A stretch of DNA of 64,000 bases, from NCBI RefSeq assembly GCF_001676385.1, contig NZ_LYVJ01000003.1, positions 62,001 through 126,000 on the forward strand, written 5' to 3'. The notes beneath the pieces are model-generated. The model was not told where the DNA came from, made no database searches, and saw only the letters and a list, made by a program, of their open reading frames with translations. Origin of the DNA: Stenotrophomonas maltophilia (GTDB lineage: Bacteria > Pseudomonadota > Gammaproteobacteria > Xanthomonadales > Xanthomonadaceae). Shown here one piece after another: positions 56,281 through 62,480 of the stretch. Position numbers and translations under genes: made by a program. Every line of letters starts with the position of its first letter. The first letter of the stretch is position 1.

Positions 56281-56715
56281 ATGGCGCAGGACACCGAATG
56301 GACACCCGTTTCGCATGACACCTGCGACCAGGTCGCCGGGCCGTTCTATCACGGCACCCGCGCTGACCTGGCGGTGGGCGAGTTGCTGAGTGCAGGCTTC
56401 CGCTCCAACTATCGCGACAGTGTGGTGATGAACCACATCTACTTCACCACGATTGCCAAGGGCGCCGGGCTGGCTGCGGAGATGGCCCGGGGAGAAGGGC
56501 GACCGCGCGTGTATGTGGTGGAGCCGACCGGGCCGTTTGAAGACGATCCGAACGTGACCAACAAGAAGTTTCCCGGGAACCCGACGCGGTCGTATCGGAG
56601 TGCGGAGCCGTTGCGGGTGGTTGGGGAGATTGTGGAGTGGGAGCTCTACGACGCGGAGTTCGTTCGGCAGTTGAAGGCGTTTGTCGCTTCGGGAAGTGGG
56701 GAGATCATCAACTGA
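56281..56715 (+). CDS. arr: NAD+-rifampin ADP-ribosyltransferase
   Basis: Arr inactivates rifamycins by ADP-ribosylation at C23 using NAD+. The 144-residue length is typical. The signatures are GPFYHGTRADLAVGELLSAGFRSNY, NHIYFTTIAKGAGLAAEMARGEGRPRVYVVEPTGPFEDDPNVTNKKFPGNPTRSYRSAEPLRVVGEIVEWELYD, which match characterised Arr proteins closely. It lies at the left edge of an accessory stretch and is convergent with a broken DUF4279 gene. Resistance is predicted, not shown. Confidence 0.93.
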   Translation: MAQDTEWTPVSHDTCDQVAGPFYHGTRADLAVGELLSAGFRSNYRDSVVMNHIYFTTIAKGAGLAAEMARGEGRPRVYVVEPTGPFEDDPNVTNKKFPGNPTRSYRSAEPLRVVGEIVEWELYDAEFVRQLKAFVASGSGEIIN

Positions 56716-57010: not shown

Positions 57011-57461
57011 AGCGTCGGGTTGGATGCCTGTAAGCTGCTGGCCTTGTGATGCCCGGCAGTTGGCCTCGCGCCAAGCAAGGCAGTGATCTCGGCTGGAATG
57101 GGGTCATCCCCGAAGAACCGGAGGGTTACCAGGGAGTGATCGAATACGGTTATTGGATTTCAGTTGCGTGCGTTCTGTTGATGTTGGCTCTCGGCCATGA
57201 GCGGACTATTCCGTCTGAAGCGCTGACGCTATTTATGCGCCTTCATGTCCGACCTTAAGGTGACTGCGACATTCTCGAGACCTGCCGTTCCTTAAGCAAC
57301 TGCCATATCCGTGAAGGGTTGTGGAGCTGAAGGCCTCCCATTCGGGCGAACCACGGGGACAGATACGCAGCACCTTGCGGTCAAAGGCGTGGGATGCAAC
57401 AGTATCGGCACGCACGGTCGGATTATTCCGTCTAACAATCATGTTTCTAGAGGAGGTTCTG
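57011..57461. other. 451-nt region between the DUF4279 remnant and the OLD-family gene
   Basis: A plus-strand frame of 70 codons (57046-57258) shows no conserved features and is not called. The stretch has a GCTCTCGGCCATGAGCGGAC repeat at 57187 and a CACGGGGACAGATACG fragment near 57353 that resembles widespread intergenic repeat ends. CGGAYTATTCCGTCT occurs twice (57203 and 57418). No certain promoter was identified. Confidence 0.5.
57187..57207 (+). repeat. Left copy of a 21-bp repeat flanking the OLD-family gene
   Basis: This sequence begins GCTCTCGGCCATGAGCGGAC and matches the copy at 59427-59447 at 18 of 21 positions. The two copies lie in direct orientation about 2.2 kb apart, around the nuclease gene. 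They may be common intergenic debris rather than element ends. Confidence 0.5.
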
Positions 57462-59111
57462 GTGCTCATTGAGGAAGCAAGGTTTCGCTTTGGCGCTGCC
57501 CAAGGGTCGGACCCACTGGTGTTGGACGAGCCTGCCGTTACCATCTTCGTCGGACCAAACAACTCGGGGAAGAGTATGGTTCTGCGCGAAATTGCCGAGT
57601 TATGCAGCAATGGAAATACACATCGTGCAATTCTTGATGGAATCAAGTTTCGCAAACACAGCACCGAAGAGATCGACGCGCTCCTTCAAGCCTGGACGGA
57701 TCACAGGCGCAGCCCGGGAGAAGTGGATCACATTGATCACGTGTACCTAAAGTTTGGAGCTTGGCGGATGCAAGTCCACGCTCCAACTTTCCGCAACATT
57801 TTGCTCAATCCCGACGAGAACATAAATGAATTTGCTCGGAAGTATGCGGCCCGACATATGCTCATTCTCGATGGAGCAAACAGGATTGGTCTGATCGCAG
57901 AAAGGAGCAGAGGCGACCTGAAGGACCCGCAAAACACATTTGCCAGGATTCTAACGAACGACACCCGCCGACAGTTGCTACGAGACGTACTTTTCGATGC
58001 GTTCGGCCTTTATCTGGGCATGGACATTTCCGAGGGCGCATCAATCCAGTTACGATACGGGAGTACGCCACCACCCAATGAGCGCAGCGTAGAGGACGCC
58101 ACGCTGGAATGGATGAGGAATGCTCGCCCCACTGATCAGTGGAGCGATGGAATGAAGGCCTTTACGGGCATGCTGCTGGAACTGCGCGCCGGCGACCCGA
58201 AAATCATGATCATCGACGAGCCCGAAGCCTTTCTGCACCCCACGCTGGCCTACAAACTTGGCCGCGAGATCGCCCACACTGCGAGCCAAGGCGACAAGCA
58301 GATTTTTGTATCAACCCATAGCAGCCAGTTCCTGATGGGCGCGATCCAGTCGGGAGTAAAGATCAATGTCGTCCGCCTGACTTATCAGCAAGGCAGTGCT
58401 ACTGCTCGAATGCTATCGAATGACTACATCCGCGTCATGATGCAGGAGCCACTTTTGCGTTCTGCGAATGCTCTGTCGGGAGTATTCTACGAAGGCGTCG
58501 TGGTTACCGAAGCGGATGCGGACCGAGCCTTCTACCAAGAGATCAACGAGCGGCTTCTTGCAGAGGAGTCTGGACGAGGTGCGCCGAACACCCTCTTCCT
58601 CAATGCTAACGGAAAGGATTCAGTGAACAAGATAGTTGGACCGCTTAGGGTACTTGGGATACCCGTTGCGGTCATTCTTGACATCGACGCACTCAACACC
58701 GAGACCAACTTTCCAGTCCTCTTGGAAGCCACAAATTACCCGAAGCCTCACGAATCTATAAAAATAGAACGCGCAGGCGTCTGGTCAGATCTTATCTCAG
58801 ACAACAAGAATCCCAAGTCAGCTGGTGGAATTTCCCTACTCAGTGGCACTGCGAAAGAAAAGGCCGAGAATCTTTTTGACCGCCTTGATCAGTATGGCCT
58901 GTTCGTTCTGAGGCATGGCGAAGTCGAGCATTGGCTGCCGGGATTGGCTGTTCCCAGAAGCAAAAGGTGGCTGCGCAACATCTTCGAGTCGCTGGGCAGC
59001 GACCCAAAAGCTCCCAACTATGTTCATCCCGATGACGACGATGTCTGGGCATATGTCGACAAGGTTGCCGCCTGGATCAAGGACAAGGCACGACGCGGCA
59101 TTCCTCTTTGA
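57462..59111 (+). CDS. OLD-family ATP-dependent nuclease (ATPase plus TOPRIM)
   Basis: The 549-residue product has an SMC/ABC-type ATPase with TIFVGPNNSGKSMVLREIAEL (Walker A, residues 31-38), DGMKAFTGMLLELRAGDPKIMIIDEPEAFLHP (signature-like region and Walker B, near 246-256) and VSTHSSQFLMGA (switch His near 284). A TOPRIM-like part follows (GVVVTEADADRAFYQEINERL, near 346; VAVILDIDAL). OLD proteins are nucleases and often phage-defence factors. A GTG at 57462 has AGGAGG five bases upstream and is preferred over ATG 57441. No GajB or other partner is adjacent. Codon use is more AT-rich than in the neighbouring core genes. Confidence 0.87.
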   Translation: MLIEEARFRFGAAQGSDPLVLDEPAVTIFVGPNNSGKSMVLREIAELCSNGNTHRAILDGIKFRKHSTEEIDALLQAWTDHRRSPGEVDHIDHVYLKFGAWRMQVHAPTFRNILLNPDENINEFARKYAARHMLILDGANRIGLIAERSRGDLKDPQNTFARILTNDTRRQLLRDVLFDAFGLYLGMDISEGASIQLRYGSTPPPNERSVEDATLEWMRNARPTDQWSDGMKAFTGMLLELRAGDPKIMIIDEPEAFLHPTLAYKLGREIAHTASQGDKQIFVSTHSSQFLMGAIQSGVKINVVRLTYQQGSATARMLSNDYIRVMMQEPLLRSANALSGVFYEGVVVTEADADRAFYQEINERLLAEESGRGAPNTLFLNANGKDSVNKIVGPLRVLGIPVAVILDIDALNTETNFPVLLEATNYPKPHESIKIERAGVWSDLISDNKNPKSAGGISLLSGTAKEKAENLFDRLDQYGLFVLRHGEVEHWLPGLAVPRSKRWLRNIFESLGSDPKAPNYVHPDDDDVWAYVDKVAAWIKDKARRGIPL

Positions 59112-60778: not shown

Positions 60779-61654
60779 ATGCTCAGGTTTTCCATGCCCG
60801 CCGTCGACCAGAATCACATTGTCGGTGCACAGCACGAAGTGCAACGGCTTCTGGGCCATTGCATTCTGCGACTTCAGCAGTGCGAGCAGCTGATGAAGTC
60901 CATGCTCGCCTTTCAGAAGTTGTTCGGTACGCCGGAAACACTCCCAATGGCCTTGAACAAGCGCAAAGCAGAGGTCAGCGGCAAGACAATGGGGGGGCTG
61001 GTAGCTCAACTAACTGCCGAATGCGTGGTGAAAGAGGGCGGCGAAGCCCCTGGCGCCCCATCGGGTTACGACAGCGATTCAAGCTTCATCGCTCTGCACA
61101 TGGGGCTAAATTTGCCAGAGCAATCCCACGCAACGCTGCAAGCCGACCTGCGCGAACTGGTGAACCTCAGGAACATGCTCGTTCACCACTTCATTCAGCA
61201 GCACGATATCCAGACTGTCGAGGGATGCCTAAAGGCACAGGCTGCACTCAGTCATTCCTACGCTCAGATCGAGCACCAGTTTCAACGGCTGCGTGCACTT
61301 GCGGCAGATGTTGCGCGGGGAGCGCAAGCCTTTGCGGATCTGGTTCAGTCACCCCAGTTCCATGATCTTCTGGTCAACGGCATCGCGCCTGATGGGCAGA
61401 TCCATTGGCCGCTCACAGGCATTGTCAGCGCGCTGAGACAGGCCTTCCGGGAACGGGCGATCGACGGCTGGGTGAACCTGGACACAGCCGTTCGCTGGGT
61501 AGCAGAGCACCAACCGGAACAAACCCCCAAGAAGTATGGCTGTGCCCGATGGCGGCACGTCATTCATGAATCTCGTCAATTCGAACTGCGCCACTTCGCA
61601 CACAACGGCCAGCTCGGGGCATGGTTCCGCGAGCGGCCAGATTCAACTGGCTAA
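60779..61654 (+). CDS. HEPN-like plus OST-HTH/LOTUS domain protein
   Basis: The 291-residue protein has an all-helical N-terminal half, with LQADLRELVNLRNMLVHHFIQQHD (near 130-145), containing RNMLVH, an R-x4-H motif of HEPN ribonucleases, and HCILRLQQCEQLMKSML near the start. The C-terminal part (about 217-275: LRQAFRERAIDGWVNLDTAVRWVAEHQPEQTPKKYGCARWRHVIHESRQFELR) resembles an OST-HTH/LOTUS RNA-binding domain. Taken together, an RNA-targeting or regulatory protein is inferred; ribonuclease activity is unproven. ATG 60779 is used; 60794 is an alternative. Confidence 0.75.
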   Translation: MLRFSMPAVDQNHIVGAQHEVQRLLGHCILRLQQCEQLMKSMLAFQKLFGTPETLPMALNKRKAEVSGKTMGGLVAQLTAECVVKEGGEAPGAPSGYDSDSSFIALHMGLNLPEQSHATLQADLRELVNLRNMLVHHFIQQHDIQTVEGCLKAQAALSHSYAQIEHQFQRLRALAADVARGAQAFADLVQSPQFHDLLVNGIAPDGQIHWPLTGIVSALRQAFRERAIDGWVNLDTAVRWVAEHQPEQTPKKYGCARWRHVIHESRQFELRHFAHNGQLGAWFRERPDSTG

Positions 61655-61894
61655 CGCCGCTGTTGTTAGTTGCAGAGATACGCTTTCTCCTACCAAGTGC
61701 TGTCGCATTTGCCGCTCCCTGCATCTCTGGCGGAAGGTTCTGACGACTCCGTTCCAGAAGTGCCGTTCCACCTAGCACGCCAAGGCTCTCGCCGTATCCG
61801 GGGCTATGCGACAATGCGAAAAGCGTCTCGGGTTTTGGCGGCATTGACCCCAACCCGTTGGCATTCCGAACAACAGCAGGTAATCGTTACTGCG
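61655..61894 (+). other. 240-nt stretch between the HEPN-LOTUS gene and the structured leader
   Basis: No gene or clear repeat was seen. Small minus-strand open frames here contain no conserved segments. The stretch could hold the promoter of the structured leader that begins at about 61895. Confidence 0.4.
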
Positions 61895-62094
61895 CCACCG
61901 TGCATCGGTGGTCGGGACTCGAAAGCCCGTTTTGTTGGGAAGTAGTTTGCGCTTGCCAGCCGGCACCACCGCGCGTGGTGCCGGCTGGCAATCCGTCTGC
62001 CGGCTATGGCGGGCGGGGCGTGGGGGTCTTGTACCCGCCGGTTCCCAACATCCGGTTTTCGAGCCACGCTCTGCCCGCCACCTTTATCGGTGGC
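61895..62094 (+). ncRNA. Large structured leader or element upstream of a small gene
   Basis: This 200-nt segment is ordered as hairpin (CCACCG...CGGTGG, 61895-61911), a left arm (CTCGAAAGCCCG...TGTTGGGAA, to 61940), a perfect 17-bp hairpin with CGCGC loop (61953-61991), a GC-rich hairpin region (62010-62040), a right arm complementary to the left (GTTCCCAACATCCGGTTTTCGAG, 62041-62063) and a GCCACC...GGTGGC hairpin (62077-62094). The nested symmetry shows an ordered structure, and the gene at 62124 begins 30 nt later. It may be a cis-acting RNA or a DNA element; which is unknown. Confidence 0.6.
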
Positions 62095-62123
62095 GGCTTC
62101 TGCCTGCATGCACGGAGCCCGCC

Positions 62124-62480
62124 ATGACCACACCACACTCCCCGCCCCCGCGCCCGATCCAGGGAGCGCCCTCGGCCGCACCAGCCCTGGATCCCAACAG
62201 CCTCATCGCCATCCCGCACGCCATCGGCGCGGGTGCTGCCGCCGACGGACAGCCCTGGCCCGAGCGGCATCACCTGCGCAGCCGGCAGATGGCGTTGTCC
62301 GACGCCGACTGCGCGCTCACCGGCCAACGCATCGTGCAGGAGATCCTGCTGGCGGCCGAGCGCACGCGCCAGAACGGCGCGCCGGAGCAGTACGTGGGCG
62401 ACCGGGTGATGGAGGGGCTGGTGATGGCCGATCTGGCGCTGACCGCCTTCATCCACGAGCGGATGCGACCCAAGGACTGA
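62124..62480 (+). CDS. Small hypothetical protein downstream of the structured leader
   Basis: The 118-residue protein (MTTPHSPPPRPIQGAPSAAPALDPNSLIAIPHAIGAGAAADGQPW; then a helical RSRQMALSDADCALTGQRIVQEILLAAERTRQNGAPEQYVGDRVMEGLVMADLALTAFIHERMRPKD) has a disordered Pro/Ala N-terminus and a helical C-terminus. It resembles short XAC0095-like or DUF6124-like proteins of this group, although this was not confirmed. The ATG at 62124 has CGGAG six to nine bases upstream; in-frame sequence before it belongs to the leader. Confidence 0.75.
   Translation: MTTPHSPPPRPIQGAPSAAPALDPNSLIAIPHAIGAGAAADGQPWPERHHLRSRQMALSDADCALTGQRIVQEILLAAERTRQNGAPEQYVGDRVMEGLVMADLALTAFIHERMRPKD

Follow-up and report, generated by a model that had tools for sequence, protein, structure and literature searches.

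The forward-strand element at about 61894-62094 of the window (the whole 64,000-nucleotide stretch of Stenotrophomonas maltophilia DNA analysed here) is a C4 antisense RNA joined to its own target: the C4 RNA makes up its 3' half and the C4 target a1/b1 its 5' arm, and the pairing between the arms is that of the C4 loops a' and b' with this target. This C4-family RNA and the target in its own leader may well form a self-limiting switch on the small gene that follows, a proposal to which we give about an even chance of being right. The layout (a hairpin, an arm, a 17-bp hairpin, another hairpin, the complementary arm, and a last hairpin) is as a sequence-only reading of this stretch had described it, and the small gene does start at 62124, 30 nt past the end of the last hairpin. 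The features, with the basis for each, are as follows:

61858-61886, plus strand: putative promoter-like site, TTGGCA - 17 nt - TAATCG, directly before the element (sequence)
61894-61912, plus strand: 5' hairpin, GCCACC..GGTGGT (sequence, folding; conserved in alignments A3 and A6)
61913-61929, plus strand: a1 target hairpin, CGGG(ACTCGAAAG)CCCG (weak c4-a1b1 match)
61933-61941, plus strand: b1 target, private code TGTTGGGAA (complementary to b' of the same copy)
61953-61991, plus strand: 17-bp GC-rich hairpin without a U-tract (arms 100% complementary)
61993-62001, plus strand: decoy strand CCGTCTGCC (helix 6 of the nested consensus, pairing with the 5' strand of C4 stem P1)
62002-62085, plus strand: C4 antisense RNA (Rfam RF01695)
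62008-62023, plus strand: C4 stem P1, 5' strand (pairs with 62064-62079 in the C4 fold)
62042-62050, plus strand: b' loop, antisense to b1 (complementarity)
62054-62063, plus strand: a' loop, antisense to a1 (complementarity, double changes)
62064-62079, plus strand: C4 stem P1, 3' strand (pairs with 62008-62023)
62077-62094, plus strand: short hairpin after C4, GCCACC-TTTATC-GGTGGC (sequence, alignment)
62114-62117, plus strand: Shine-Dalgarno (SD) sequence GGAG, without a b2 target (sequence)
62124-62480, plus strand: small gene of 118 aa with the motif ADGQPWPE (ORF, family comparison)

The segment 62002-62085 scores 67 bits against the Rfam C4 model (cut-off 45, E 1.3e-12), and the c4-a1b1 model gives a weak match at 61881-61933 (24.1 bits, below its cut-off of 46.7); from these two matches it follows that, in the nested fold, a C4 RNA is trapped in pairing with its own target. 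The earlier statement that the element matches no known leader is thus wrong, as the 3' half is RF01695 and the 5' half weakly c4-a1b1, while the idea of an undescribed cis-regulatory RNA survives in one respect (a regulatory leader is copied among small genes, in 10 copies) and falls in another (the RNA family is known). A riboswitch or other known leader was rejected, the remaining Rfam matches lying below cut-off (c4-a1b1 24.1, ncS037 24.6, and sRNA-Xcc1 19.6 bits). The RNA belongs to the C4 family by model score (67 against 45 bits), and its a'/b' loops are complementary to a target in the same unit, which is presumably a single transcript. The P1-type second target a2/b2 over the ribosome-binding site is absent at the window element, making this a C4-family RNA by model that is incomplete as a P1-type C4 system. 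A phage antirepressor is likewise absent downstream, where the gene has no Pfam or PHROG match; the Rfam model does not demand one.

RNA folding of the 251 bases at 61880-62130 gives -138.4 kcal/mol, compared with -108.2 ± 4.9 kcal/mol in 200 dinucleotide shuffles (z -6.2; none of the 200 reached so low a value). The arms pair as a1/a', CTCGAAAG (61918-61925) with TTTTCGAG (62056-62063), and as b1/b', TGTTGGGAA (61933-61941) with TTCCCAACA (62042-62050). Alignment A6 holds 52 of the 60 elements classed below as derived (8 divergent ones were omitted), and RNAalifold applied to these 52 copies yields the nested fold. A lack of covariation had been named as the outcome that would count against the element; over the aligned copies the nested fold does covary, with 98.1% of cells paired, both-side changes at 25 of its 52 pairs, and 215 double-change cells, where shuffles give 69.2 ± 10.6 and slid controls no more than 23; the slid control is partly circular because RNAalifold derived the nested structure from the same alignment. 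We conclude that nested folding is a genuine property of the element, conserved and supported by covariation. Both sides of the a1/a' pairs are changed in up to 25 of the 52 copies, and 13 of 16 pairs of the 17-bp hairpin show both-side changes; this hairpin, which occupies the place of the intrinsic terminator in canonical C4 loci, has arms of at least 12 pairs in 136 of 140 elements. The decoy strand CCGTCTGCC, just 5' of C4, resembles the 3' strand of stem P1, and its helix 6 is paired in 99.7% of cells with zero double changes, and so speaks for conservation only.

Over the same 52 copies, the C4 fold (P1, P2, and the 17-bp hairpin) has 99.1% of cells paired, with 99.3% for the P1 stem alone and double changes at 2 of its 16 pairs. 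The nested fold and the C4 fold are mutually incompatible, and both are conserved. When the pairs are forced, with 52 of 60 elements used, the nested fold comes out lower than the C4 fold for 45 of the 52, with a mean of -6.9 kcal/mol; with the nested fold predicted to be the stabler in so many, free C4 may be rare. Accessibility of the SD sequence is nearly equal in the two states (0.15 and 0.19), and since the site is about equally hidden in both folds, energy folding predicts no sign of regulation.

The sequence of b/b' is private to each locus. In a pairing test that is independent of any alignment, self b/b' pairing amounts to -14.6 ± 3.2 kcal/mol over 112 elements, compared with -4.9 ± 2.3 kcal/mol for 562 ordered non-self paralog pairs from the same genome, of which 3 reach -12; the complementary run is shorter than 8 bases in 18 of the 112 self pairs. 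This set leaves out the G009 and G017 copies, whose genomes appear to be represented already, as well as 5 of 117 elements that could not be parsed, including the window genome's own copies C8 and C4b, where pairing was seen by eye only. An earlier element set gave a self mean of -15.8 (66 values) versus -7.3 for non-self (612 values), and 3 of 70 elements in the earlier b-only set were unparsed; a test on longer segments, blurred by GC-rich stems and with self pairing best in its row for 5 of 10 own copies, was superseded by the b-only test. Because the ten copies differ in their pairing sequences, each likely switches its own gene only.

Between orthologs (at least 80% amino acid identity, different genomes), -12 is reached in just 230 of 1180 ordered pairs, from which we conclude that the codes turn over fast. 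Strong cross-pairs make up 3 of 562 (0.5%) within genomes versus 102 of 10686 (1.0%) between genomes; cross-pairing is not clearly rarer within than between genomes, and these frequencies do not demonstrate selection for orthogonality. The window-locus group numbers 20 sequences: that of the window itself, those of 15 named loci, and four more from three other genomes. Across the group, the scaffold is near-identical and b and b' are swapped jointly, and both chromosomal flanks of the window are common to 12 of the 15 named relatives. In the 4.12 Mb of this genome, the joint target pattern CTCGAAA-N3-20-TTGGGAA is confined to the element, where it stands as the target and, in complement, within C4 (one occurrence each). 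Gaps put the b helix out of register in alignment A3, and its values must be read accordingly: 90.4% of cells paired versus 87.2% and 13 double-change cells versus 5.5, both above all 500 shuffles, along with 2 pairs with double changes (307 of 500 shuffles as high) and 7 further pair types (500 of 500 as high).

The window genome contains nine C4 copies above cut-off and one weaker copy, L009 (33.4 bits). Behind each of the ten, at a distance of 30-46 nt, is the ATG of a small gene encoding 84-136 aa, so the outcome that had been allowed for, copies that are nothing but mobile repeats remote from small genes, did not materialize; 8 of the 10 downstream genes belong to one family, carrying the motif ADGQPWPE or something near it. 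A further weak match, L021 (32.8 bits), has no such small gene behind it. Ten ORFs flanking the own copies were searched for signs of a prophage setting, and of the four with Pfam matches none is phage. At E ≤ 0.001, C4 was found in 23 of 61 genomes, made up of 22 of the 37 own-genus genomes, which range from 0 to 26 matches, and one of the other 24. The distribution of match number per own-genus genome is bimodal, with 8-26 in 18 of 37, 1-2 in 4, and none in 15. At the level of the bacterial family, 41 of 198 genomes have a C4 match, 40 of them above cut-off; the genomes listed with at least six matches are all of the same genus and make up 7 of the 9 own-genus genomes shown.

Approached from the protein side, GTDB genomes yielded 124 loci of the protein family, of which 80 were kept (76 from Stenotrophomonas and 4 from [Pseudomonas] hibiscicola), and C4 lies directly upstream in all 80. 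Among the 80 named loci, L139 and L145 have non-cognate target and C4 halves, L171 has lost the target, and the 5' part of L164 has been replaced; these may be recombinants, decaying copies, or assembly artefacts, and owing to them the cis target cannot be called universally kept. Relatives of the small gene also occur on 7 viral contigs, where a PHROG scan of 10 ORFs neighbouring the viral copies gave 2 matches, both on L222.

The form seen at the window is stripped down relative to canonical C4 loci. The window locus has no intrinsic terminator. A run of at least five T between a1b1 and C4 is present at 22 of 24 placed class-level loci (L200 and L209, the other two of the 26, were unplaceable and left out), at 0 of 80 named loci, and in 12 of 70 Xanthomonadales elements, whose split into 10 "canonical" and 60 "derived" was made partly on the T-run itself; in the 2 derived elements with a T-run, it sits in the b1 segment. 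The second target at the SD sequence is absent in the derived set, where complementarity is at chance level: the longest run between C4 loop and SD averages 6.88 self versus 6.64 non-self (60 elements), as against 9.11 and 7.12 in a canonical set of 35 elements. Canonical runs of at least 7 occur in 32 of 35 self pairs, yet also in 61% of non-self pairs, so that the contrast is modest, and a clear b2 is missing in several of the 6 G047 copies in that set. Among the class-level loci, a complementary run overlaps the SD sequence in many. On the upstream (a1/b1) side, the derived set reaches 10.62 self versus 7.75 non-self. The loop at the position of the post-C4 hairpin carries, by eye, the second target a2 at canonical loci, some of which also show isrK and c4-a1b1 matches upstream of C4; four of five downstream genes tested there match AntA, Rha (two), or Bro-N. 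A few Stenotrophomonas copies (L065, L068, L071, and L095) are still canonical; the protein encoded at L065 matches a family of phage anti-repressors.

How the leader might operate can be outlined as follows. Transcription would start just upstream of 61894. Of 140 elements, drawn from two sets that have some genomes in common, 92 have a TTGGCA box 95-200 nt upstream of C4, and in 81 of those 92 the spacing is 139-147 nt; because a strict sigma-70 scan returned no promoter at the window locus, we treat the promoter-like site there as putative. Upstream of the box, copies such as L013, L014, and L019 share by eye a GCGACAATGC..AAGCGTC-like stretch, possibly a regulator site. As long as the RNA is full-length, nested folding would keep C4 captive on its own target. 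Where that target is already bound in trans, the downstream C4 would be able to fold and be released, which would create feedback; RNase P would free it, as reported for phage P1, and the freed C4 would then act in trans on transcripts newly made from that locus. Released C4 likely pairs with the starts of transcripts from its own locus and lowers expression of the gene. To judge by phage P1 C4 and the P4 CI RNA, expression would fall through RNA decay or through early termination, which would probably depend on Rho. On these analogies we favor negative autoregulation, C4 acting on the leader it comes from; the chief alternative is a switch that works in cis only. A broader proposal, which we consider distinctly unlikely, is that the copies (up to 26 C4 matches per Stenotrophomonas genome) are a chromosomal set of mutually deaf self-recognition switches derived from a phage immunity RNA, each gene answering to its own code alone, with matched codes replaced fast by diversifying selection; if true, the set would resemble phage heteroimmunity or orthogonal RNA antitoxins.

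In a leader that is bistable purely in cis, a1/b1 would pair intramolecularly with a'/b', the balance of folds would set expression of the gene without any trans antisense, and the private codes would stem from ordinary compensatory drift. The nested fold being favored in 45 of 52 copies, the conservation of both folds, the loss of the second target used by the trans-acting C4 of phages, and the lack of additional avoidance of cross-pairing all fit such a leader. We nevertheless think it somewhat unlikely, as stem P1 has been kept in full, as in a processed C4 RNA (99.3% of cells), and drift poorly explains the joint swap of two short segments in an otherwise near-identical sequence. Activation in the manner of IsrK, whereby a short or processed a1/b1 RNA would pair in trans with the C4 of a long transcript and open the gene, appears quite improbable for the window form, which has no terminator to make the short RNA, no isrK match, and an SD sequence that is not tied up in C4 pairing; IsrK itself was shown to work in this way (PMC4825925), and isrK matches overlap a1b1 and the terminator at canonical loci, with L193 alone above cut-off.

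Spread rather than regulation could also account for a repeat or mobile cassette of leader and gene, in keeping with the many copies per genome, their patchy occurrence over species (at least 8 in 18 of 37 own-genus genomes, none in 15), and the relatives of the gene on 7 viral contigs. A cassette with no regulatory role is, in contrast, hard to square with two folds under constraint, with a code that stays complementary through turnover, and with a window locus that is syntenic in 12 of 15 named relatives, and we regard it as very improbable. A coding role for the leader is scarcely credible: a 190-aa ORF from 61908 (GTG) runs in frame with the small gene, the frame is open, and one protein entry of 190 aa (P0083) is 97% identical to the 118-aa query, but element lengths differ by non-multiples of 3, and we reject this reading because the leader frame contains stops in 9 of 15 named relatives.

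Among known systems, the C4 RNA of phages P1 and P7 (RF01695, with c4-a1b1 as RF03163) is a close counterpart, which shares with the window element the model match, the complementarity of a'/b' to upstream a1/b1, and the P1 stem; phage P1 and the window also share the order a1b1 - C4 - gene, and the c4-a1b1 match in phage P1 reaches 51 bits. Inspected by eye, phage P1 (AF234172) has a T-run hairpin between a1b1 and C4 and an a2/b2 over the ribosome-binding site, both lacking in the window form, which in turn precedes a chromosomal small gene rather than an antirepressor and comes with 10 differing codes per genome. C4 of P1/P7 is reported to undergo RNase P processing (as cited in PMC5320573), and the processed P1 RNA is described as blocking translation of its target (PMC5320573, PMC12197685). 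The c4 family has been reported from Proteobacteria and phages, and c4-a1b1 from gamma-Proteobacteria and phages (Weinberg et al. 2010, PMC2864571). The P4 CI RNA, with seqA and seqC, is similar in that, as PMC4825925 describes it, a processed antisense RNA pairs with sites in its own transcript and causes premature termination; at the window only the upstream site is present. Group 1 C4-like sRNAs of Acinetobacter baumannii likewise have many chromosomal copies, are apparently processed, and have a variable loop (PMC5320573). The description of them in that source names no target and has the a' loop vary, whereas the window form has a cognate target in each leader and varies most in b/b'.

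IsrK of Salmonella Gifsy-1 (RF01394) is similar in a different respect: its leader is described as pairing in cis downstream, in the silent structure A, or as acting in trans (PMC4825925). According to the same source, translation is turned on either by mutating the silent nested structure or by trans pairing, and IsrK is thereby an experimental precedent for a nested fold combined with trans pairing in a like layout (PMC4825925). Trans pairing activates in IsrK, whereas we propose repression at the window, and IsrK has a terminator and a short form, whereas the window has no terminator. The window copy, L014, gave no isrK match with E ≤ 0.1, and the phrase "C4 antisense" was not found in the text of PMC4825925.

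For sRNA-Xcc1 (RF02221, Xanthomonadaceae), an upstream segment complementary to the sRNA loop is seen by eye at 12 of 12 loci, and a T-run at 11 of 12; its model scores 19.6 bits at the window against a cut-off of 53 and has no match in the own-genus genomes of the sample (at least 4 included). By eye, several of the sRNA-Xcc1 loci L227-L238 have a second site over the SD sequence. Of five genes tested downstream of sRNA-Xcc1, two match SymE_toxin and two the XAC0095 family above cut-off, and this position before SymE or XAC0095-family genes in 4 of 5 cases suggests that C4-like leaders often control small proteins. It is possible that sRNA-Xcc1 is related to C4 and has its target in cis, and the comparison suggests one common architecture for phage C4, IsrK, and sRNA-Xcc1.

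C4 in Stenotrophomonas was not found in open-licence literature, and the present form of C4 was not found described in the titles and abstract starts of the papers listed from that literature; as far as searched, the RNA family is known and its stripped-down, multi-copy, private-code chromosomal form is undescribed. Since each chromosomal copy brings its target with it, the pairing code can be read for about 100 natural matched pairs, a ready test set for the evolution of antisense specificity. The element also offers a first regulatory handle on a small-protein family of an opportunistic pathogen. AlphaFold2 predicts that the 118-aa protein begins with a flexible N-terminal part and continues as a long helical hairpin (mean pLDDT 85). 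The protein has zero matches in Pfam, NCBIfam, PHROG, and PADLOC; as regards a type I toxin-antitoxin reading, it thus has no annotated relative above cut-off, and a fold search of the PDB gave a best E of 1.2, none significant; homology to XAC0095 was rejected (hhalign probability 0.3%). Among the best 120 of 626 matches in a protein search, most named entries are Stenotrophomonas; two have other labels, namely Acinetobacter bereziniae for P0095, on a contig of 511 bases, and a Pseudomonas MAG for P0053, on one of 1056 bases.

Several genes upstream of the element, all on the plus strand, are of separate interest. The gene at 57321-59111 encodes AAA ATPase and OLD-like TOPRIM domains, with Old as its best PADLOC match (2.8e-23); it looks like an OLD-family nuclease, with a possible role in defence. 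A gene with a C-terminal OST-HTH/LOTUS domain (1.7e-7) lies at 60779-61654, and as about 1 kb (between 60687 and 61696) is missing in 11 of 15 named relatives, it looks inserted. Further upstream, 56281-56715 encodes an Arr-like rifampin ADP-ribosyltransferase (Pfam Arr-ms, 2.3e-47).
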